From Pyrofollis japonicus (lineage in GTDB: Archaea > Thermoproteota > Thermoprotei_A > Sulfolobales > Pyrodictiaceae), in assembly GCF_033097485.1 (NCBI RefSeq), contig NZ_AP028634.1:1727126-1791125 (forward strand): a stretch of 64,000 nt of DNA, in the 5' to 3' direction. The notes beneath the pieces are model-generated. The model was not told the origin of the DNA, ran no database searches, and saw only the letters and a program-made list of their open reading frames with translations. Of this stretch, positions 25,563 to 48,621 are shown piece by piece. The position numbers and the translations under genes are program-made. Position 1 is the first letter of the stretch. Each line of letters starts with the position of its first letter.

Positions 25563-26819
25563 GTGAGTCTACCACACCCAAGCCTATCGATTATCGACGA
25601 GCACGAGGGCGAGCTAAGAGGCAAATGTATTGTGCTGGGAGTAACCGGGAGTGCCGCGATTTATCGTAGCATAGACCTTGCTCGCACGCTTATGAGGCTT
25701 GGAGCAAGGGTACGCGTGGTTACGACTCCTGCGGCCACCGAGCTGGTCTCACCAACACTGTTTGAGTGGGCTACCGGGTACCCTGTTGTAACAAAGCTCA
25801 CGGGCGCAATAGAGCATGTCACGCTCTCGCGTCTCTGCGACGCAGTCGTTGTTGCTCCTGCCAGCCTAGATACGTTGGCAGAGATAGCTGAGCTGCGGGC
25901 CTCAACACCTGTCTCGGCAACTGTTCAGGAGGCAGCAGGCCTCGGGAAGCCAGTACTCCTCATTCCGGCCATGCACCTAGGTATGTGGAGGAGATCTAAG
26001 AGGCTCCTAGACGAGCTCGGGAGACAAGGCTTCTACGTAATGGAGCCCGTTATTGAGGGTGAACAAGCAAAGTATCCTCCCGTAGAATTAGCTGCTTGGT
26101 GGATAGAGTCTATCCTTATGCGCGGAGTTGACCTACGAGGCAAGAAGGTGCTAGTAACTGCTGGGCCTACAAGGGAGTATATAGACGAAGTCCGGGTCCT
26201 AACTAATCCGTCGAGCGGAAAAATGGGGGTCTACCTTGCTCTCGAGGCGCGGTGGCGAGGAGCAGACGTTGTCCTCCTCCACGGCCCCCTCTGCACGGCT
26301 TTACCACCGCAGTGGAGAAGCTATGTAGAGGCATACAATTTTGTAAGTGCAGAAGATGCGCTAAGACTTGTACGCGAGCACGCTAAAGGTATAGACCTAG
26401 GACTCTACGCTGCAGCCATAAGTGATTACAAGCCGTCGGAGAAGCTCGAAGGAAAAATAGATTCAAGCAGCAACAAGGAACTTGTCTTGAAGCTAGTCAA
26501 GACCCCTAAAGTAATAGCGGAGGCTGTTGCAGCTGAGCCTAATGCTGTGCACATAGGCTTTGCCGCGGAGGCTGCGAGCAGTGTGGAGGAACTACTCGTA
26601 AAGGCGAGGAGGAAGCTCGAGAAGTATAGGCTTGACGCAGTAGCGGCGAACAATATACGTGAACCAGGCGCTGGGTTTGGCTCGGAGACTAATCACGTCT
26701 ACATAGTTGATTGGAGAGGAGGCGCGACTGAGATACCTAGGATGCATAAGAGGCTCGTCGCGAGAAGAATACTAAATCATGCGGTAAAACTGCTGACTGA
26801 GGGACCTAGGCCGAGGTAG
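25563..26819 (+). CDS. coaBC: Bifunctional phosphopantothenoylcysteine decarboxylase/synthetase
   Basis: A 418-residue two-domain enzyme. The N-terminal flavoprotein CoaC domain has VTGSAAIY near 28, catalytic His85 in IEHVTLSR and the substrate motif PAMHLGMW (the usual Asn is His here). The C-terminal CoaB domain starts near 190 with VTAGPTREYID and NPSSGKMG and adds cysteine to 4'-phosphopantothenate. The product is 4'-phosphopantetheine, a CoA precursor. GTG start preceded by a hairpin-like inverted repeat. Divergent from pantoate kinase. Confidence 0.93.
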   Translation: MSLPHPSLSIIDEHEGELRGKCIVLGVTGSAAIYRSIDLARTLMRLGARVRVVTTPAATELVSPTLFEWATGYPVVTKLTGAIEHVTLSRLCDAVVVAPASLDTLAEIAELRASTPVSATVQEAAGLGKPVLLIPAMHLGMWRRSKRLLDELGRQGFYVMEPVIEGEQAKYPPVELAAWWIESILMRGVDLRGKKVLVTAGPTREYIDEVRVLTNPSSGKMGVYLALEARWRGADVVLLHGPLCTALPPQWRSYVEAYNFVSAEDALRLVREHAKGIDLGLYAAAISDYKPSEKLEGKIDSSSNKELVLKLVKTPKVIAEAVAAEPNAVHIGFAAEAASSVEELLVKARRKLEKYRLDAVAANNIREPGAGFGSETNHVYIVDWRGGATEIPRMHKRLVARRILNHAVKLLTEGPRPR

Positions 26820-26822
26820 CGA

Positions 26823-27287
26823 TTAAGCTGGCTCAGAGCCTCTCGGGGGCTTCATCGCATAAGCTATGGCGTCATCTATGTCTCTGAAGACTCTAACGCA
26901 TGTTGTCCTGCGCTTGCGGAGCCTCATCTTGAGAGGCACCAAGTAGTAGACCTGGCCAGTGAACGGGTCCTCTGGCACCCATAAGACGAGGATCCTATAC
27001 CCTGTCTCAGCTACTGCGAGTTCAAAAGCCTTAGATATGAGGGGGCGTGCTCTCTCTCCACATGCCCGCATCTTGGGGACTTCAACCGTGAACGGGGGCT
27101 GTTGCTTCTTCTCGTATACGCGGCCGCGCTTGGCAGTCCACACTGTTATTGCAGCTGTGCCGCCGGGGACACCGCTCTTCTCCTCTTCCAGTTCCTCAGC
27201 CAGCTCTTCCGAAGGTATTAGCGGCTCCTCTAGCTCCTCTTCTAGCTCCATTCGGGCCGCTTCGAGGGCCATATCTCTACGCCCCAT
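26823..27287 (-). CDS. Hypothetical protein, 154 residues
   Basis: Not recognised. ATG 27287 (MGRRDM) is preferred over an upstream in-frame start. The first 50 residues are strongly acidic and Glu rich (LEEELEEPLIP, EELEEEKSG), probably flexible or coiled. The C-terminal 100 residues form a basic alpha/beta domain with FRDIDDAIAYAM near the end. Its 3' end lies three bases from the convergent coaBC stop. No functional clue beyond that. Confidence 0.55.
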   Translation of the reverse strand: MGRRDMALEAARMELEEELEEPLIPSEELAEELEEEKSGVPGGTAAITVWTAKRGRVYEKKQQPPFTVEVPKMRACGERARPLISKAFELAVAETGYRILVLWVPEDPFTGQVYYLVPLKMRLRKRRTTCVRVFRDIDDAIAYAMKPPRGSEPA

Positions 27288-27482
27288 GTTTAATAGTGAT
27301 AGCCATCCTTGCCTAGATATAAAGGTAATCATTAGAATTGATATGCGCTCTCCAGATAGTACCGTACTACCTAACTACTGTGATGCGCCCCACTCCTTAC
27401 GGCAACCACCGCTATGGAACTATGCAGTAACAACACGTTAAAGTAAGTCAAAGCACAACACTGTTCACCACGGTAAACATCC

Positions 27483-27801
27483 TTGCAGAGAACATTGCGC
27501 ATCGAGGACTTCTCGCTCCTAACCCACGTTGGTGACCCCCAGGTCTCGCCGAAAGGCAGGTACATCGCCGTTTCAACTATAAGGCCGCGGCTCAAGGAAA
27601 ACAAGTATTTGAAAGAGATCTGGATCTATAGGGCTAGCGACACCAAGCCCTTGGCTGTCCTACAGAGCGAGAGCGACTCGTCGCCGCGCTGGAGCAACGA
27701 CGAGGAAAAGATTGTATTCGCGTCACGTAGAGCCTTGACGGAAGAATAAGGGTGAAGTAATCTCTATACTTATCGTCTTGGCGGCGAAGCACAAGTTAAC
27801 C
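27483..27801 (+). pseudogene. Remnant of an S9-family acylaminoacyl-peptidase-like gene
   Basis: The first 88 codons read as the start of an S9 peptidase beta-propeller (IEDFSLLTHVGDPQVSPKG, then SPRWSNDEEKIVFASRR). A TAA (27747) and a TGA (27753) then interrupt the frame. Translation in the same frame continues with SNLYTYRLGGEAQ, which is normal propeller sequence, until a third stop at 27799. Everything after that, including the catalytic hydrolase domain, is gone and the base composition changes to AT rich. S9 peptidases of this type are about 600 residues, so this is a decayed 5' remnant, probably cut by the adjacent insertion. Confidence 0.75.
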
Positions 27802-28103
27802 TACTGTAAAACTGTCTTTAAATAAAAATCTAAACAAATACTCAGCTCTAAGGAGCAGACATACGTATTTCATAAATTAACCATAATGAACGTCTATTAT
27901 TGAGATTAATTAAACACCTTCTAGAGCGCGTTATTTTATAATTTCTTAAAAGTAGAAATTTAGTTTCAATATTTTTAATAATAAACATATTACTTTAGAT
28001 TATCCTTAAATAACGAGTCTACAAGTATAAAATATTAAACTGTCCATCATATTAAAGATAATATTAGGCGCTAGAAGCAGAATATGTCAGGTGAATATGT
28101 AGC
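27802..28103. other. AT-rich intergenic start of an accessory segment
   Basis: About 300 bases of very AT-rich DNA between the peptidase remnant and the HD-domain gene. No open frame of note, no tRNA and no clear terminal repeat were found. GGTGA at about 28090 serves as ribosome binding site for the next gene. It marks the left edge of the compositionally foreign block that ends near 30.56 kb. Confidence 0.5.
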
Positions 28104-30074
28104 GTGACTATTAAGACTGTTAAACCAAAGCTAATACATGATGCAATCCATGGAACAATACCGTATACTAGCATAGAACATGAAATAATCTCAAATTACA
28201 TATTTAATAGACTCCACGATATACTACAAAACTCCTTAGTTTTTCGCGTATTTCCTGGAGACAGAATCTCTAGATTTTCACACTCAATAGGTGTAATGCA
28301 CATAAGTAGTAAAATATTCTTTTATTCTCTTGCTAATACAGATGATCAGACCCTTCACTTATTTTATGAAAAGATAAGGGAGTTTGTCAAAGAATATGCC
28401 CGAATAATAAATGATGATTTAAAAGTAATATCACCTTCAGGTCAAGAGGTTTACTGTGCTAAAGAGTACACATCAGAGGATCTGAAGGAAGTCCTCAAGA
28501 GGATATTAAATCCCGAGGTAGTACTCAATTACTTTATACCAGGAAATGTAAGTGATGAATTTAAACCCTACCTATTGTTTAGCTTACAAAGCCTTAGAAT
28601 TGCAAGCTTATTACATGACGCGGGTCATTTACCCTTAAGTCATGTATTTGAATATGCACTTGACCAAATATATAAAGAATTAGAAAGCATGCATAATAAT
28701 ATAAATGAAATTAAACATTTATTTGAATCATATAAGAATTTTCGAGAGCTATTTTCAACGCAACTGAAACCTCATGAAACGCTAAGCATTATTATTGTTT
28801 TACAACTACTAGGTAATAAATATAAAAGAATTCTAAGAGAAATGGATAGCGAGGAAAAATGCCCAGCCCCGCTTGAAGATGTTTACGACGCAATTGTACA
28901 TGCTATGTTAGCTCTATCCTCAGCGCTCATTATTTTAGGAGATAAAAGCGATACTGCAGTAAATAATATTCTTGAATTTTTACATAAAAACAATGAATAT
29001 AAAATAAATGTTGATTTAGGAATATTTTCAAAAACGCTTCACCAAATTTTAGATAATGAAGTTGATAGTGATAAAATAGACTATGTTAAAAGAGCATCAC
29101 TATATAGCGGCGTAAAGATGTCATTTAATGAGGACAGAATTATCACCACATACAGACTCGTAAAGGATTCTAGCAGTCCTAACCTCTACATCTTACCCGC
29201 CGCAAAATCGCTGCATGAAATTGAAGAACTTCATAAAGCTTTATTTCGTTTCTATCGAAATATAATAGGCCATCATAGAGTAATGTTATTAGAAAAATTA
29301 TTAACAGAAATATTAACTAAAATGATAAGATTATATAAGTATTATGATTCGTTACCTGATAAATATAATGATATAAGGAATTATATAAAAGAAAACTATA
29401 TTCAGAAATTAATAAGATTATTTGATTTTTGCAACAAACATAAATTTAGAGAAGCTATTGCTGTGCTTTTTTCTCTAGATGATGCCTGGATTTTTTCATT
29501 TTTGAAAAATATATATGTATACATACTAACAAAAGAAATACGAAATCAAAAACTTGAAAAAATTGAAAAAGAGTTAGAAATAATGCTTAGAGAAATTTTT
29601 GAAAATGTAAAAGAAATTAGACCATTATGGAAGCACCGAAGTGAGTACTGGAGCTTTATTAGAAGCTTATTTAATAATGATAATAAAATAAATATAAAGG
29701 ATATAAATGGAAAGCTTAGAATAAAGTTACTAGATACAAAAGAAACGAGCTTAGAACTTCAACAATGCATAGAGAATTGTGTTAAGAAAAATAATTACGA
29801 TAGTAAAGAAGTTTTCGGGATACTCATACAGCCCCTAGCACCTGTTCTTCGACTCCCCAAACTTAAGGGGAAATTTAGGATTTGGACCTATAGAGGTGAT
29901 TCTATAAGAATTGTTCATATAGATGAATTATCTGAACTTCGACGTCTACAAGACGAGGAGGAAAAAACACATGTACAGCTATATGTATATTATTACAAAG
30001 ACCTTAATAGAAGAGTTATTGAAAAATGTACAAGAAGCTGCATCAAAGATGTTCTAATAACAGATACCAAATGA
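28104..30074 (+). CDS. HD-domain phosphohydrolase, SAMHD1/dGTPase-like, in AT-rich island
   Basis: A 656-residue protein with the metal-binding HD signature: His60 in FSHSIGVMH, His171-Asp172 in LLHDAGHLPLSH, and an Asp in DSDKIDYVKRAS (321-332). The spacing resembles COG1078/SAMHD1-type dNTP triphosphohydrolases. About 300 mostly helical, Lys/Glu/Ile-rich residues follow and match nothing recognised. Base composition is unlike the neighbours: 28681-28740 holds 10 G+C of 60, against 33 of 60 at 26281-26340. GTG start after GGTGA. Family knowledge: such enzymes hydrolyse dNTPs, and some restrict viruses. A defence role is inference. No partner nuclease or transposase is next to it. Confidence 0.8.
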   Translation: MTIKTVKPKLIHDAIHGTIPYTSIEHEIISNYIFNRLHDILQNSLVFRVFPGDRISRFSHSIGVMHISSKIFFYSLANTDDQTLHLFYEKIREFVKEYARIINDDLKVISPSGQEVYCAKEYTSEDLKEVLKRILNPEVVLNYFIPGNVSDEFKPYLLFSLQSLRIASLLHDAGHLPLSHVFEYALDQIYKELESMHNNINEIKHLFESYKNFRELFSTQLKPHETLSIIIVLQLLGNKYKRILREMDSEEKCPAPLEDVYDAIVHAMLALSSALIILGDKSDTAVNNILEFLHKNNEYKINVDLGIFSKTLHQILDNEVDSDKIDYVKRASLYSGVKMSFNEDRIITTYRLVKDSSSPNLYILPAAKSLHEIEELHKALFRFYRNIIGHHRVMLLEKLLTEILTKMIRLYKYYDSLPDKYNDIRNYIKENYIQKLIRLFDFCNKHKFREAIAVLFSLDDAWIFSFLKNIYVYILTKEIRNQKLEKIEKELEIMLREIFENVKEIRPLWKHRSEYWSFIRSLFNNDNKINIKDINGKLRIKLLDTKETSLELQQCIENCVKKNNYDSKEVFGILIQPLAPVLRLPKLKGKFRIWTYRGDSIRIVHIDELSELRRLQDEEEKTHVQLYVYYYKDLNRRVIEKCTRSCIKDVLITDTK

Positions 30075-30105
30075 ATAAACAAGATAATAAACAAAAATAC
30101 ATAAC

Positions 30106-30300
30106 TTAAGCTATATTCTTTAACGCCTCATTCACGATGCGATATTCTTTATCACCTATCCTCTCTATGTACCCCCATCTCTCAAGCTGCTTTAAAATAG
30201 TGTATGCGTCATCTACCTTAGTCTTTTCTATAAAGTCGTAAAGGGTAAACTTTCCACCATTACGTGAAACTTCTCTTAAGAACTTTAATATGCTAGGCAT
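30106..30300 (-). CDS. Small winged-helix DNA-binding protein
   Basis: A 64-residue protein with a winged-helix pattern: helix 1 (ILKFLREVS), helix 2-3 (LYDFIEKTKV, DAYTILKQLERWGYI) and a two-strand wing (YIERIGDKEYRIVN). GGTG precedes the ATG. It converges on the HD-domain gene with 31 bases between them and shares its AT-rich composition, so both probably arrived together. It could repress the island or its own promoter; the target is unknown. Confidence 0.6.
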   Translation of the reverse strand: MPSILKFLREVSRNGGKFTLYDFIEKTKVDDAYTILKQLERWGYIERIGDKEYRIVNEALKNIA

Positions 30301-30660
30301 TTTTTCACCATTATTATCTAGGAAGTTGTTACGTTATCAATGTACTGCCCAAAAATATCCCCGAATAATACGCTTTCTGAAGTAACTTCAACAGTAATCA
30401 GTATTACACTATACCTATAAAACTTAGAGAAATAAGTAAAAAATATAATATATAGATAAAAGTCTTTATATCTATAGTTATATATTCTTTACATCATTCT
30501 AACAGACCCATTGCAGGGTTTGCAAAATGAGGACCGCAAAACGATATACGCAAAAAGCTCAAGCACTGCTTAAAGGGGTATAAAAATCATCCTTGACTTC
30601 TTCGAGGACAAGCTTGGGGCAAAAGGGGGTTTAAGAGAGCAATGACATGTTTTTGCTGTT
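30301..30660. other. Intergenic right edge of the AT-rich segment
   Basis: 360 bases without a convincing gene. The first part (to about 30490) is AT rich and should hold the promoter of the small winged-helix gene. From about 30560 the composition returns to normal. GGGTATAAAAATC near 30580 is a strong-looking rightward TATA box, yet no gene follows it on that strand. A short frame after it (IILDFFEDKLGAKGG) could be the end of a lost gene. No flanking repeat was detected by eye. Confidence 0.4.
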
Positions 30661-31581
30661 CTAGCCTCTAGGTTTCCATGCTACTCCTTCATCGGTTGTA
30701 ACGGGCTCAACTAGGCCTTCTTCTTCGAGCCAAGCCACAACAGAGACTAGCGCTGTACGGTTTAGGAGCACTTGGCGCGGAGTAGGCTCGGCCGCTGAGA
30801 GGTCTCGTGTAGCGATTACTGCTAGCTTGTCAATAGTTATCGGGTGATGCGACCTTATCGTCTCTAGTACATAGTTTCTTACCTTGTCTACGGCGGCGAT
30901 ATTGGCCTCTATCATTGCCTTTGCTCTCCCACCCTCTACTATGGGTCCATGGCCTGGGACTATTTTGTACCCAGACTCTGCTAGCTCCATTAATACCTGC
31001 AGGCTTTCCTTCCACTCGCGCAGATTCAGCGCAAAGGGTATCCCAAACCTGGCCAGAACCTTCTCACCGAGAATCGCGTCACCTGCTGCAATAACCTTAT
31101 CGTCTTCAATTACTATCCCGCTATGCCCGGGGCTATGGCCGCGAAGATCTATTGTTTTCACGCCGGATGCTATTTCCTCGCCCCACCAATAGGCCCTGGA
31201 CACTCTCAGCGTTATGGGGGGCATTGAGGCGAGAGACTTGCTAATAACTCCGCCATAGACTATGCTGAACCGTGTCTCAAGGCTCTCAACGAGAGGCACA
31301 CAGTACTTGTGAGCCAAGACTTGTACTGATTCCGATACCAGGGGAGGAGCAGCAGCCAAGTGATCTGTATGGCCATGGGTTAGCGCGATCACTGTTGCCC
31401 GTAAGCCTAGCTTCTCTAGACTCGCAGAAATGAGGGAAGAGCGATCATCCCCTATACCGGGGTCAATGATCATCGCCGAGCCATTGCCAAGGCCTACTAT
31501 TACCGTGTTAGGGCTCCCGGGTAGAGCCCACGTCCTATCTCCTAAGCGTCTAGGCTTCGCCGCCACTTCTGGACCCCTCAC
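30661..31581 (-). CDS. Metallo-beta-lactamase-fold hydrolase
   Basis: A 306-residue protein with the MBL metal motif THGHTDH near residue 70, further His in LRGHSPGHSG, Asp in AAGDAILG and VPGHGPIV, which together form the two-metal site. A C-terminal winged-helix-like extension (from about 235, HHPITIDKLAVIA) is typical of the LACTB2/glyoxalase II-like group. Substrate unknown: thioesterase or nuclease activity are both possible in this family. GTG start. Divergent from the DUF364 gene. Confidence 0.85.
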   Translation of the reverse strand: MRGPEVAAKPRRLGDRTWALPGSPNTVIVGLGNGSAMIIDPGIGDDRSSLISASLEKLGLRATVIALTHGHTDHLAAAPPLVSESVQVLAHKYCVPLVESLETRFSIVYGGVISKSLASMPPITLRVSRAYWWGEEIASGVKTIDLRGHSPGHSGIVIEDDKVIAAGDAILGEKVLARFGIPFALNLREWKESLQVLMELAESGYKIVPGHGPIVEGGRAKAMIEANIAAVDKVRNYVLETIRSHHPITIDKLAVIATRDLSAAEPTPRQVLLNRTALVSVVAWLEEEGLVEPVTTDEGVAWKPRG

Positions 31582-34264: not shown

Positions 34265-36397
34265 ATGACGAGACAGACAAACGTTGCGAGACCTGTAGGC
34301 ATGGTTACAGGCGATGCCAGGCCGGACTATTTTGTTTTCACAGCAGACCCTGACAATATTCCGCGACTCTATGACTACGTATACATTGAGGCTAAAGAGG
34401 TCCCACCAGGTGAAAACGAGCCAGTCACGGTCAAGGTTCTCGCACAGATTCGTAGCATTCGGCGCCTCGCACTAGGCGTCTCCCCGGAGCATCCTTGGCC
34501 AGTGCTCCGCAATCTTTCCCTGCCGCGCGGAAGCGACACAGTCATCGCTTCCGCAAAGGTTCTTGGGTACAAGTGGCGCGGAGGCATATATTATCCAAGG
34601 CATGCACCACCCGTAGGCTCATGGGTTTACCTAGCCCCTGATGACCTGCTGAAGGAGTTTTACTCTGTAGAGGAGCCACGCAGGCTCCATGTCGGATACT
34701 TGATTTCTAGGCCGAGTGTGCCAGCATTTCTTGACTTAGAGGGGATAAAGCGCCACGTAGCCATTATAGCTGCTACCGGCGCGGGCAAGACATGGGCAAG
34801 TGTTGTTCTCATAGAGGAGCTTCTGAAGAAAGGAGCAACAATAGTTGTTTTGGATCCGCATGGCGAGTACGCTGCTATGAAGAGAACCGCGTACCGTCTT
34901 GGCCAAGGCTTTGAAAACGCCGTAAGGGTTCTAAAAGGGCACCGGGAGCAGGAAGGCGACCTACAGTATCGGGTCAGCATTGCTGACATGTCTGCTGAAG
35001 AGCTTGCAACTATAGCCGGTATACCTTCAAAGGCTAATCGTATTAGGAGCGTAATCTATGGCGCGAAGAGGCTCTCTGCATGGATGTCGGAGGCTACGGG
35101 TGATCCTCGTTGGAGGGGACTGCGCGGGATAATAAAGATAATACAGTCTGCGATAGACGCTATGGAGATAACACGAATGCAGAACAATATGAGGCTTGAC
35201 GTTTTTGCGCAGAACTTGGTGACTAGGCTCGCCCTTAAAACCGGCTGGGAGAACGAGAGGCTTAAGGAGTTACAGAAGAGGCTTAAGGAACTAATTGCTT
35301 CGGACGAGGAGATAGGTAAGGGCATTAGGAGGCTATGGCTAAGCCTCAGTAGGGATACTTCGCCGGGCTATGACGCGATCCGGTATCTTGATGAACTCCT
35401 CCGCATAGGAGTTTACGGCGTAAAGACTATCCCGCTTGATGTCCTCCTGGAACCGGGCACGGTCACGGTTGTTAACCTGGCTGGACTGAGGGCAGAGGTC
35501 CAAGACCACCTTGTATACAATATTCTCTACCGAATTTTCACCGCTAGGTTGCGCTACCTTAGGAGGATACCTGGGGAGAGCTACCCATATCCGGTCGTCG
35601 TCGTGCTGGAGGAGGCCCACCGATTCGTTCCTCCGAAGTCCCAGAAGCAGACGCGTAGTCGCGACATTGTCGCAACAATTGCCTCAGAGGGTAGAAAGTT
35701 TGGTGTATTCATTGTGGCTATTACTCAGAGGCCTAGCCGCATCGACCCCGACGTGCTTAGCCAGCTCCAGGGCCAGATAATTCTTCGTATAGTTAATCCC
35801 CGGGACCAGGAAGCAATAAGGGATTCGAGTGAGCAGGTAAGCCAAGATCTTCTCGACAATCTTCCTGGCCTGAACACTGGAGAGGCGGTAGTAGTAGGGC
35901 CGTTGTCGCCTGCACCCATAATGATGAGGTTAAGGGATCGCGTGCTGAGCTATAGCGGGGGCGACATAAGCCTTGTGGAGGCTTGGGGTGCGTCTAGGAG
36001 CGATATGAAGCTTTTAGAAGAGATGAAGCAAGATGCGTTAGAGAAGATATCGGCGCTCACCGGTGAGAAGTACCGTGACCTCGCAGAAGCCTTAGCGGAG
36101 CTAACGGGGCTCGATGTAGGTAGCAAGGATGTAGACAAGGCACTGCGCTTAATTGTCCGGGAAAGCGTTTGGGCGAGCTATAACGACGAGGTGGGCGTCA
36201 TATATGGTGAGGTGATCTACCATGACGGTAGGAGCTGCGAGGTGAGAATCGATATTGCTTCGCGCACACCTTATTGTTCGTGCTGTGGCAACCGCGTATG
36301 TGGCCATGTTGTAGCCGTGCTTATCAGGGCTGTACTTGATAACGTGATCCCGGTTGGAGCTGAAGCTAGATCTGAACCATGGTCCGACCTATTATAG
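34265..36397 (+). CDS. HerA-like ATPase with C-terminal SWIM zinc finger
   Basis: A 710-residue protein. An N-terminal HAS-like barrel (about 20-130) precedes a HerA/FtsK-type ATPase with Walker A ATGAGKTW at 170-177, LDPHGEYAAM after it, and Walker B VVVLEEAHRF near 446-455. FGVFIVAITQRPSRI and NPRDQEAI are DUF87/HerA sensor motifs. Near residues 668-682 there is CSCCGNRVCGH, a CxCxnCxH SWIM zinc finger that binds DNA or protein. This fusion is uncommon for HerA. The role is probably DNA processing or translocation, and no nuclease partner lies next to it. ATG start after an A/G-rich leader. Confidence 0.85.
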   Translation: MTRQTNVARPVGMVTGDARPDYFVFTADPDNIPRLYDYVYIEAKEVPPGENEPVTVKVLAQIRSIRRLALGVSPEHPWPVLRNLSLPRGSDTVIASAKVLGYKWRGGIYYPRHAPPVGSWVYLAPDDLLKEFYSVEEPRRLHVGYLISRPSVPAFLDLEGIKRHVAIIAATGAGKTWASVVLIEELLKKGATIVVLDPHGEYAAMKRTAYRLGQGFENAVRVLKGHREQEGDLQYRVSIADMSAEELATIAGIPSKANRIRSVIYGAKRLSAWMSEATGDPRWRGLRGIIKIIQSAIDAMEITRMQNNMRLDVFAQNLVTRLALKTGWENERLKELQKRLKELIASDEEIGKGIRRLWLSLSRDTSPGYDAIRYLDELLRIGVYGVKTIPLDVLLEPGTVTVVNLAGLRAEVQDHLVYNILYRIFTARLRYLRRIPGESYPYPVVVVLEEAHRFVPPKSQKQTRSRDIVATIASEGRKFGVFIVAITQRPSRIDPDVLSQLQGQIILRIVNPRDQEAIRDSSEQVSQDLLDNLPGLNTGEAVVVGPLSPAPIMMRLRDRVLSYSGGDISLVEAWGASRSDMKLLEEMKQDALEKISALTGEKYRDLAEALAELTGLDVGSKDVDKALRLIVRESVWASYNDEVGVIYGEVIYHDGRSCEVRIDIASRTPYCSCCGNRVCGHVVAVLIRAVLDNVIPVGAEARSEPWSDLL

Positions 36398-44519: not shown

Positions 44520-46130
44520 GTGAGCTATATTGTAGTGGAGTATAAGAGGGTGCATGCCTCGTTGACGCTTAACCTACAAGAGATTGGTGAAGAAATTGGC
44601 ATTGTTCTGAGCAACGCCACTGCATCACTTGCCCCCATAGCGCTTCGCCGCGACAAGGAGCTAGATGTCCGCGAAGAAGACCTAGTTATAATCCGGGATG
44701 AAGGCTTAGGCGATGGCTACTACATGCTTGGTGTGATAAGGTGGATAACACGCTATGAACCCTTCCTGCGTAGGAGCGTACACAACGTTTACATAGAGCA
44801 TCCGGAAGCCCTGAGCTCCGAGGTAGTGATGCCCTTCTCTAACGCCTTCGTCGAAATCTACGGAGCCATATGTGACGGGGGGAAACCGTGCACTCGCCGG
44901 GGATTCGTTAGCAATGTTTATCCTCCTACACCGGGAAGCAAGGTCTACAAACTGGTAAAGGCCGATGATCTTTCTAGATACCTTACAGTTGCTGAGCCGA
45001 TAAGCGTTGGTGTGCACAAGTATAGTGATTGGAGGCTGCCGCTTGACTCTGCTTGGCTTAACTACCATATTGGAGTATTCGGCGCGACGGGCACGGGAAA
45101 GAGTAGGCTAATACTGAGACTGATCACAGAGATAGTGCGCACCGGATACGGGCTAATCGTCTTTGATCACAATGGCGTTGATTATGCACCGTTCGCGGAG
45201 AAAATTGGAGCAGAAGTTATTGACGCCTCATCTATAAGGATTGAACCAAAGATCTTTGCATCAATAGTTGGTAGGCTTGTTGATGTACAGGGTACGCAGA
45301 GGGATGTAGTAGAGGTCGCCGCCCTGTGCTATGCTATGAAGACTTATCGTGACAAGGATGACCGGTACAACAAGTACGGCTTAGAGGAGTGTGGCCGTTT
45401 CATAGCGCAGAGTAGTACGTCTCATCACCTTTACTCAAAGAAGCAGGAAAAGCAGTCCATGACGCCGAAAGAGGAGTTCATACAAGTACTTGATAAGGCT
45501 ATCAGACTACTCTACACCCGCGGAGCTGACGCGGCAGCCGTCAAGCTTAAGCTACTGACCCGCCTCAATATACCAGACTATGTCTTCGAGAAGCTCAGAG
45601 ACAGGGTATTGGAGCCGGAAGACATAGTACTGAAGGCCTTAAAGGGTAAAGCCGTAGTAATTGATATGAGCACTGAGCAAGACATAGAGGTGAAAAGAGG
45701 CATTATTGCATCAGTTGCCTCGGCCGTCTGGAGCCACATAGCGGCAACGAGGAGCGAGGCAAGACTAGGCTTAGTTGTCGATGAGGCCCAGAACTATGCG
45801 TGCGAATACTGTGGCGAGGCGGGCAAAGCTCTCGAGACAATAGCTAGGGAGGGCAGAAAGTGGAAGTACTTCATAATAGTAGCGAGCCAGCGCGTAAGCA
45901 GAGATATACGGCCAGGCGTAAGGAGTAATCTCGGAACGGTGTTCTTCTCAAGGCTACAAGCAAGCGGTGATCTACAGGAACTATCGGGCTACCTCGACCT
46001 TGGCAGGGTCAGTGAAGCCAACCTCGCCATGCTCGCGAGGAGAGAATTCTACGTAGCAGGGCTGATGAACCCGTTGAGAAGACCAATGCTCCTGCTGGTA
46101 GACGATATTAGCTATATGAAAAACTCGTGA
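44520..46130 (+). CDS. herA: DNA translocase HerA
   Basis: A 536-residue hexameric ATPase. An N-terminal HAS-barrel (about 1-150) precedes Walker A GATGTGKSRL near 184-193, FDHNGVDYAPF, and Walker B LVVDEAQNYACEYC near 420. ASQRVSRDIRPG is the sensor segment. HerA drives end resection with the NurA nuclease. The nurA gene ends only four bases from its stop on the opposite strand, so the pair is kept together but convergent. GTG start. Confidence 0.85.
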   Translation: MSYIVVEYKRVHASLTLNLQEIGEEIGIVLSNATASLAPIALRRDKELDVREEDLVIIRDEGLGDGYYMLGVIRWITRYEPFLRRSVHNVYIEHPEALSSEVVMPFSNAFVEIYGAICDGGKPCTRRGFVSNVYPPTPGSKVYKLVKADDLSRYLTVAEPISVGVHKYSDWRLPLDSAWLNYHIGVFGATGTGKSRLILRLITEIVRTGYGLIVFDHNGVDYAPFAEKIGAEVIDASSIRIEPKIFASIVGRLVDVQGTQRDVVEVAALCYAMKTYRDKDDRYNKYGLEECGRFIAQSSTSHHLYSKKQEKQSMTPKEEFIQVLDKAIRLLYTRGADAAAVKLKLLTRLNIPDYVFEKLRDRVLEPEDIVLKALKGKAVVIDMSTEQDIEVKRGIIASVASAVWSHIAATRSEARLGLVVDEAQNYACEYCGEAGKALETIAREGRKWKYFIIVASQRVSRDIRPGVRSNLGTVFFSRLQASGDLQELSGYLDLGRVSEANLAMLARREFYVAGLMNPLRRPMLLLVDDISYMKNS

Positions 46131-46134
46131 ATAG

Positions 46135-47340
46135 CTAAAACTTTTTCTTCTCGTATAGATAGCGCTTTTCCGGATTCGTATGACTCATAACCACTACATG
46201 CTCGCCTCGCAGCCCTTCCTCTTTGAGCATCTCGACTAAGTGCTTAATGATTCTTCTACGCACAAGTTCAAGCATATATGATTCCAAGCGTACGTAGCTA
46301 TCAACCAAGTCTATGGGATATGGTAGCCCTGTTGCAGGATTAGTGAGCGCCGACAGTATTGAAAGTACGCGCTCTAAGCCCAGGTTACCATAGTCGAGAA
46401 TTTCCACTCTAACCGCTTGACCAGGTCCTTGGCGAGGCTTATAGAAGGCGACAATTACTTCTCCGTAGCTGGGCCTCTTCTCTAGGAGCTCTTTAACTCC
46501 TTCAACATATCCCTTAACGTTCTTTCCTTCCTTCTTGCGCTCCTCAGCTATTATCTCTGCATAGCGTGGAACAAGGTCGGAAAACTTTCCAAGGACAACG
46601 TAGCTCCCAGGCCGGAGAATCATACTCATAATTGCTTTATCGTTTAGCGGAAGCTTCTCACCATTATTAAACACGCGTAAGAGGCGCGAATAACTCCTCT
46701 TAACTACTCCTATAAGCGTGACTCCTTGCTCTCTTGCCCTCTCTAATACCCTCATTGTTGCCTCGTCCAGCCTGGTAAGCACCTTGCTTTTCACAATACT
46801 CCGCCAGGGCCTAAACAACAGCTTGTACGGGACAAGTTCGCCGTCAAATAGTATGATAACTGGCTTTAGTAGGCCCTTCTCTTTATTCTCTAGAACTTTT
46901 AATGTGATCTTTTTCTCTGCTATCTTCGCGTAGAGAGGTATACGGCTTCTCATATTCTCGTCATCGGCAAAGAGAATATCCACTATCGACTCTACGGGCT
47001 TATCTTCGCCGCCGGAGACGCCGCCAAAGCCGATGTAACCTGCGATAACCGCTGCTAAATGCCCGCCTACTAGGTCAACTCCTCCATCAATGGGAAAAGT
47101 CGAATCAACAGCCACACCAGGCAGAGGCCGTTCATAGCCTAGGATACCCCATTCAAGACTATCGAGGATGCTCATTATCTTGTCGAAATCGTCTCTAAAC
47201 GACAATATGCGCCCAGCTATGCGCTCCGCAAGCCTCCTAGTCTTCTCCAGCATCTTTTGAACAGCTGGTGCAAACTCAACCATCTCAGTGTCTTCATCAA
47301 GTAATCCGAAGCGCTTAAGAACGTCCTCCTCGCTCTCCAT
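46135..47340 (-). CDS. nurA: NurA nuclease
   Basis: An RNase H-fold nuclease of about 401 residues. The metal-binding Asp lies in GVAVDSTFPIDGG near residue 80, and YGEVIVAFYKPRQGP plus PYPIDLVDSYVRL are conserved later. NurA degrades the 5' strand during end resection with HerA. ATG 47340 (MESEEDVLKRFG) is chosen because the longer frame adds an unlikely Cys-containing leader. Convergent to herA; Mre11 and Rad50 are not in this window. Confidence 0.85.
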   Translation of the reverse strand: MESEEDVLKRFGLLDEDTEMVEFAPAVQKMLEKTRRLAERIAGRILSFRDDFDKIMSILDSLEWGILGYERPLPGVAVDSTFPIDGGVDLVGGHLAAVIAGYIGFGGVSGGEDKPVESIVDILFADDENMRSRIPLYAKIAEKKITLKVLENKEKGLLKPVIILFDGELVPYKLLFRPWRSIVKSKVLTRLDEATMRVLERAREQGVTLIGVVKRSYSRLLRVFNNGEKLPLNDKAIMSMILRPGSYVVLGKFSDLVPRYAEIIAEERKKEGKNVKGYVEGVKELLEKRPSYGEVIVAFYKPRQGPGQAVRVEILDYGNLGLERVLSILSALTNPATGLPYPIDLVDSYVRLESYMLELVRRRIIKHLVEMLKEEGLRGEHVVVMSHTNPEKRYLYEKKKF

Positions 47341-47469
47341 GGCCTCTCTTCTCCGATCAATCGTGAATAGAAATGCTTCCCGGATACAAGTTAGGAGGCC
47401 GGTAGTACTTTGTATCACTTCCCTATATTCGTGCTAAAAAGAGGTAACTTCTCTATGAAAAAGGAGCTA

Positions 47470-48621
47470 TTATCTATGCCTTAGCAGAAGTATTGAGAGC
47501 GATAATACTAGTAAAGGGATAACGAGAATGAGGATTAGTCTGCTGTTGATGTTGCTATAACCTTTACCAGTAGCAAAAACTACTACACTCTTACTTGTAT
47601 TGCATTTATTGACGGAGATAGAGCTAGCTGACATTGAGGATGAAGTCACATGTACTGTGTTATTTAATGCTGATGATTTCTCGCTAAGGGAGGGTGTTGA
47701 GATGTTTTCTACTTTAACTGGAATAGCCACTTGCTTTACGTCAAGCCTTCCCCAAACATCAATAGACGAGCTGTACCCGACAACCACCTCTACGTGATGG
47801 AATTTAAAGTTAGTCTTGTTGAGAGCCTCTGCTAACTTCCTCCCCAGAGCAAGAACAGTGCTTTTATCAATGCTATCTTCCCTGACTAGCGAAGTATTTA
47901 CAAATAAAATTAAATGCCCTGTAAACTTATCTATGGCGAACATGTATTCCTCTCTAATATACTCATTTTTACTATCCCCTATATGTACATGCTCTCTCAC
48001 ATATACAAGATTAGCTTCAGGAAATAGCTCTTGAAACACTTTATCTATCTCTGGCAACTTTTTGTTAATATAGACGATAATATCTCCTAGCTCGCGCCCA
48101 CGATACTTCTTGATACCGCTATTACATGGATAGAGTACTACTTTGTAGCCAAGTTTTACTAGCTTTTTGATCGCATCTATAGCGCTTATGCTATTGTTAT
48201 TGTGTGCCAAGTTAATGCCTATGAATAAAAGATGCTTAAAAGGGCAATAAATGAGTGAACACATACTCACATTATTATCCTCAAGCTGGCTATAGATTTC
48301 ATCTAGTACTCTGTCTAGAGTATCGTTTTGCCATACATCTTGGTAACAATTTTCTTTGAGAAGAATGTTTGCCCAAGCAGGGTTACCAATCTTGCTTCTA
48401 GATACGAGAATTATAAGGGTATATCCATAATGCCGTAATTTGATTATCTCTGGACTTGTTGTGTTGAGAAAATCGTACAGTGCGCTTATGCTATCATTAT
48501 ATATGTATATGTTGTTATTTAGGCTATAATTATATGAGGCTATAGCTGTGAATGATGTGAAGGCAGCGGCTATGAATAGGAGGCCTAAGAATAATACTAT
48601 TCCAGAAATGTCAGCCTGCAC
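47470..48621 (-). CDS. Surface protein with N- and C-terminal membrane segments
   Basis: A 383-residue protein of unknown function, slightly AT richer than its neighbours. An N-terminal hydrophobic segment (about 7-27) and a C-terminal one (about 360-379, LILILVIPLLVLSLSILLL) bracket a probably extracellular domain with many Asn-x-Ser/Thr sites. A Ser/Thr-rich stalk (about 305-345) precedes the C-terminal anchor. Four Cys in the middle (NCYQDV, MCSLIYC, PCNSG) may form disulfides. No enzymatic motif recognised. Confidence 0.65.
   Translation of the reverse strand: MQADISGIVLFLGLLFIAAAFTSFTAIASYNYSLNNNIYIYNDSISALYDFLNTTSPEIIKLRHYGYTLIILVSRSKIGNPAWANILLKENCYQDVWQNDTLDRVLDEIYSQLEDNNVSMCSLIYCPFKHLLFIGINLAHNNNSISAIDAIKKLVKLGYKVVLYPCNSGIKKYRGRELGDIIVYINKKLPEIDKVFQELFPEANLVYVREHVHIGDSKNEYIREEYMFAIDKFTGHLILFVNTSLVREDSIDKSTVLALGRKLAEALNKTNFKFHHVEVVVGYSSSIDVWGRLDVKQVAIPVKVENISTPSLSEKSSALNNTVHVTSSSMSASSISVNKCNTSKSVVVFATGKGYSNINSRLILILVIPLLVLSLSILLLRHR

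Follow-up and report, generated by a model that had tools for sequence, protein, structure and literature searches.

A gene in the archaeon Pyrofollis japonicus (28104..30074, + strand, of the 64-kb stretch of DNA analysed, hereafter the window) encodes a 656-aa SAMHD1-like (COG1078-type) HD phosphohydrolase, as identified from profile, fold and active-site residues. It is a foreign, strain-specific gene of a rare SAMHD1-like subfamily. The best explanation that we can offer, and one that we think has an even chance of being right, is that it is an acquired SAMHD1-like dNTP triphosphohydrolase, from a rare and enlarged subfamily, that would lower the dNTP pool against viral or plasmid DNA.

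A strain-specific insertion

The gene lies within a clean insertion of 3,290 bp (27371..30660) between two conserved genes, whose limits are set by an empty site in each of three congeners (L036, L037 and L038). There the left- and right-flank genes are directly adjacent, and window positions 27370 and 30661 align to one and the same base. The left flank is the gene of a conserved 169-aa protein (26823..27332, - strand; matches in genomes G001, G002 and G004), and the right flank is a conserved gene for a metallo-beta-lactamase-fold protein of 306 aa (30661..31581, - strand; Pfam E=9e-16), whose orthologues, 66% identical, adjoin the left-flank gene in the congeners. The insertion is strain-specific, carried by P. 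japonicus alone among the members of its genus and family that were searched. We favour gain of the segment because its composition is foreign and it is missing from the rest of the family; loss from the other congeners is strictly possible.

An earlier sequence-only reading had described an AT-rich island of foreign composition, and both of its base counts (10/60 G+C at 28681-28740 and 33/60 at 26281-26340) are exact. The island is real, but the extent assigned to it was too small, as the empty site gives 27371-30660 and the foreign segment also takes in a peptidase fragment of host-like G+C (27483-27749). The AT-rich part proper occupies 27750-30660, at 31% G+C. No stretch of the window is richer in A+T than the one with the HD gene, at 30% G+C versus about 50%; the lowest-G+C run of 1971 nt in the 64 kb begins at 27801 (0.29; mean 0.49, sd 0.044). 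Its G+C is 0.30 and its GC3 is 0.23, and the two flanking genes have GC3 values of 0.51-0.59. A second low-G+C stretch (41-44%) is found at 47470-48621 and encodes a 383-aa protein, seemingly membrane-anchored.

The ends of the insertion have a 3-bp CTA in common and nothing more. A repeat search for transposon ends yielded no convincing terminal repeats there, and we saw no integrase, transposase, tRNA or inverted repeat marking them. No Rfam or tRNA gene was found within the 64-kb window, and thus the insertion is not a tRNA-targeted integration. No further copies of the AT-rich flanks occur elsewhere in the genome. The peptidase fragment (27483..27749, + strand) is the 88-aa N-terminal portion of an S9-type peptidase (PD40, E=6.5e-6), with corresponding open frames of 565-648 aa in genomes G010 and G026. 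It is a passenger or relic in the insertion; the window holds no C-terminal remnant of the peptidase, and the P. japonicus genome holds no second match to the fragment.

Membership in the SAMHD1-like family

The HD gene has a GTG start with AGGTGA upstream, and a 656-codon frame arising by chance at 30% G+C is out of the question. Prokaryotic HD dNTPases fall into two families, SAMHD1-like (COG1078) and Dgt-like (PMC7854603), and we are all but certain that the 656-aa protein belongs to the former and not to the latter. Its Pfam HD score, 18.6 bits, is under the cut-off of 22. The protein nevertheless matches SAMHD1-type structures by sequence, and a family profile matches 2hek (E=1e-73) and 2q14 (5e-68), as well as 2o6i, 3irh and 4lrl; against SAMHD1 (4bzc) it reaches E=6e-53 over nearly the full length. 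Dgt-type structures reach only about 1e-4 with the same profile. The predicted fold (pTM 0.80) resembles SAMHD1 in Foldseek (E about 1e-12, probability 1.00, TM-score by target about 0.6), and all 50 of the matches listed are SAMHD1-type. The similarity thus spans the HD core and the C-terminal region, as in SAMHD1-like (COG1078/YdhJ) dNTPases.

The HD signature that had suggested a SAMHD1-type enzyme is real, with H60, H171-D172, H175, H224 and D323 invariant in two alignments. The roughly 300 helical residues that had been called unrecognised belong mostly, from the 4bzc profile and Foldseek, to the helical and C-terminal region of the SAMHD1 family. Structure prediction, which had been proposed as a check on residues 340-656, gave a SAMHD1-like fold for the protein, with low confidence at residues 475-544. 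The C-terminal alpha/beta region (residues 546-651; 29739..30056, + strand), defined from predicted secondary structure, comprises strands at 570-577, 592-597, 600-605 and 624-630 and a helix at 636-651, with uneven confidence.

Distribution and relatives

Profile searches covered the genus, the family, 214 genomes of the order and 398 genomes of the phylum, and brought up no orthologue that scored at the level of the subfamily. This result and the empty site bear out a strain-specific insertion. The outcome that had been named as refuting the sequence-only reading, an order-wide single-copy core gene of normal composition, does not describe the 656-aa protein; more distant COG1078-type relatives are present in 91 of the 98 genomes searched. 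P. japonicus has a COG1078-type paralogue of its own (L002), of 516 aa and with a canonical D/Q/R activator site.

A tblastn search of plasmids and phages returned one full-length relative, a 635-aa protein annotated "hypothetical protein" on plasmid pHRV44 of Nitrosophilus labii (NIL_RS10345, WP_187647745.1). The two proteins are 28% identical over 538 aa and form one branch of the tree with 100/100 support, both end branches being long. By sequence, these two known members make up a rare, enlarged SAMHD1-like subfamily. Single-protein queries of viral contigs found no close relatives, and distant ones by alignment only. A single scan of a genome collection with narrow peptide patterns gave only two distant matches, so that the rarity of the subfamily in bacteria is no more than tentative.

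The N. labii gene is located on the 103-kb plasmid in a Tn7-like element, beside genes for TnsA, a Mu-type transposase, TniB and TniQ, and an N-6 DNA methylase is among the same-strand genes just upstream. The accession numbers of the cargo proteins of this island (L114, NZ_AP022827.1 8000-50000) break the series of their neighbours on the plasmid, where WP_187647742.1 has two annotated entries; these observations hint that the N. labii genome contains the element more than once. Defence genes of the "nucleotide depletion" kind are among the known cargo of Tn7-like transposons (PMC8649781).

Prophages and phages of enterobacteria, a P2-like phage included, carry more distant relatives of 510-541 aa as accessory genes; HD-domain and SAMHD1 genes go unmentioned in a paper on P2-like phage hotspots. 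In the lambda-like prophage of E. coli SCU-111 (L115 8000-9547), a 515-aa SAMHD1-like gene lies between ren/P and ninE and adjoins a DUF4041 gene. It is a candidate superinfection-defence gene, and 21 out of 5,426 E. coli genomes carry relatives. Such mobile-element and prophage positions are typical of accessory cargo; the defence role of these relatives is only putative.

An alternative explanation is that the gene encodes an accessory enzyme of the dNTP pool, with a role in metabolism or in avoiding mutations, that was transferred by chance and is not antiviral. SAMHD1-like auxiliary genes occur in nearly all bacterial phyla and in archaea, at 0-3 per chromosome (PMC7854603), and the presence of some COG1078-type protein in 91 of 98 relatives fits such a role; many of these widespread proteins may be housekeeping. 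However, the genome already has L002, with its canonical site, and a plasmid-borne island of the transposon type holds the sole full-length cousin. We regard this alternative as having a smaller share of the probability than an antiviral dNTPase.

Active site, activator site and enlargement

Active- and activator-site columns were tabulated over 41 aligned proteins, the 656-aa protein included. The four metal ligands (H60, H171, D172 and D323) are kept. Also kept are H175, H180, H224 and R57, the equivalents of H210, H215, H233 and R164 of human SAMHD1, and Q42 and Y327, the equivalents of Q149 and Y315. The pattern of the SAMHD1-like family, i.e. the metal ligands H...HD...D, the catalytic H210/H233 and R164, is therefore present in full. 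In three archaeal COG1078-type proteins of the order (L018, L020 and L023), catalytic histidines have been replaced (H206 by N, H210 by Q, and H233 by S, K or N), and these proteins are possibly inactive paralogues. From the conserved residues and the modelled fold, the 656-aa protein is probably a dNTPase or a closely related nucleotide hydrolase.

One departure stands out. The position equivalent to D319 of SAMHD1, a common feature of the SAMHD1-like family but no part of its formal definition, is A331 in the 656-aa protein and D in all 40 others tabulated; substrate or activity may differ as a result. In SAMHD1, D319 contacts the sugar 3'-OH, and the alanine thus raises the alternative that the hydrolase acts on a different substrate, be it some other nucleotide or a signal nucleotide, or that the protein binds nucleotides or nucleic acid without hydrolysing them. 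That A331 is unique among the 41 proteins speaks for it. Against it, the protein retains every metal ligand and catalytic histidine, D is present at this position in the N. labii cousin, and the apparently degenerate L018, L020 and L023 lose histidines instead. We consider this alternative unlikely, and retain dNTP hydrolysis as the preferred activity.

The activator site is altered as well. D34/Q39/R42 of fungal SAMHD1, the equivalents of D137/Q142/R145, bind GTP (PMC12042053). In the 656-aa protein these positions are S30, N35 and H38, and the site is not conserved; it is not universal within the SAMHD1-like family, and its residues are also altered, in part, in the archaeal relatives L008-L015 and L024. 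The N. labii protein has the same S/N/H.

A further trait of the subfamily in the 41-protein table is an enlargement between the first metal-binding histidine and the HD dyad (residues 72-160; 28317..28583, + strand). It measures 89 aa here and 96 in N. labii, versus 9-55 in the 39 other aligned family members, and helices are predicted at 81-105, 124-135 and 137-144.

The convergent small ORF

A small winged-helix-like ORF of 64 aa (30106..30300, - strand, from the ORF list) converges on the HD gene. It is as the sequence-only reading described it, with an ATG start and GGTGA just upstream, but its standing as a gene is less certain than that of the HD gene, as an ORF of at least 64 codons arises in 15% of shuffles of the 586-nt stretch (p=0.15; the length is not significant). 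Its helix-turn-helix matches are all sub-threshold. A single-sequence model is helical, of moderate confidence (pLDDT 75), and gave no significant fold match; no clear homologues of the protein were found among 98 genomes (best E=0.006). It would be at most a local transcription factor.

The HD protein and this ORF had been proposed as a two-gene defence module, nucleotide depletion plus a regulator; we weighed this reading together with a toxin-antitoxin-like form of it, with the small protein repressing or restraining the enzyme. The AT-rich part (27750-30660) does hold just two ORFs of at least 60 aa, and the N. labii HD gene is likewise followed, after 13 bp, by a small ORF, of 71 aa and on the same strand. 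The orientation here is convergent and not co-operonic, however, the two small proteins are dissimilar (no BLAST match; shuffle p 0.45-0.88; hhalign probability 0.2%), and the length and homology results above also weigh against a module. The pair was thus not recovered side by side elsewhere, N. labii being the one comparison locus. A conserved pair is not supported, and we think a two-gene module very improbable; the insertion would have delivered one clear enzyme gene, that of a SAMHD1-like dNTP triphosphohydrolase.

Comparison with known systems

The nearest counterpart is the N. labii protein, a full-length relative with the enlargement and activator-site residues in common; it differs in being bacterial, in its Tn7-like island, in its D at the 331 position and in a small neighbour gene with no detectable similarity. 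The COG1078/YdhJ dNTPases of E. faecalis (3irh/4lrl), B. thetaiotaomicron (2q14) and A. aeolicus (2hek) have the same fold, active-site residues and domain order, but are 371-480 aa long and differ from the 656-aa protein in its enlargement, changed activator site and A331. Human SAMHD1 and fungal SAMHD1 (9mr6) share its catalytic core fold and active-site residues; the 656-aa protein has no SAM domain, and the D137/Q142/R145 GTP site is not conserved in it. The PDB chain 9mr6, considered as a defence protein, was rejected as such, being fungal SAMHD1. The antiviral dNTP depletion of SAMHD1 is the model for the function proposed here.

Bacterial defence genes of the Dgt-type dGTPase class, reportedly described by Tal et al. 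in 2022, have the HD motif in common with the 656-aa protein. This class was rejected: the PADLOC dGTPase model matches with E=0.0046 over 40 residues only, and NCBIfam dGTP_triPase scores 14.9 bits against a cut-off of 152. Clover (CloA/CloB) employs an HD dNTPase in defence, and CloA has been compared with Dgt-type dGTPases (PMC12265719). The locus is not Clover, as the family differs and CloB is missing: the AT-rich part has no second ORF long enough for this nucleotidyltransferase, and its flanks are conserved genes.

No known defence systems were found nearby, PADLOC on ten neighbours reporting HerA-type ATPases only, at 34-46 kb. The HD gene does not cluster with known defence genes, and the flanks are conserved in congeners. 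The two HerA-type ATPase genes are at 34265-36397 and 44520-47418, the latter adjoining a convergent 427-aa gene that by eye resembles NurA.

Proposed function

For an acquired SAMHD1-like dNTPase we count the SAMHD1 match, the active site, the foreign insertion, the transposon-borne cousin in N. labii and the prophage relatives; against it we count the lack of a known defence system nearby, A331, the widespread COG1078 proteins and a subfamily of two known members only, 30% identical. With a metal bound at H60, H171, D172 and D323, the enzyme would split dNTPs to yield deoxynucleosides and triphosphate. In its active state it would draw down the dNTP pool and thereby keep viral or plasmid DNA from being replicated. 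We infer such an antiviral role, which is plausible and about as probable as its opposite. Control of the putative dNTPase is likely altered: GTP control is unlikely because the D137/Q142/R145 positions are S30/N35/H38, and the 72-160 enlargement may sense a cue other than GTP. More tentatively, and with a probability well short of even, the enlarged, island- or transposon-borne subfamily of an archaeon and a bacterium may have lost the GTP switch and sense infection through residues 72-160, which would make it an undescribed archaeal dNTP-depletion defence.

If the enzyme only balances nucleotide pools, this is an ordinary accessory gene. If it is antiviral, SAMHD1-type dNTP depletion would extend to an acquired archaeal gene, in a subfamily that lacks the usual GTP switch, so that the trigger becomes a directly testable question.
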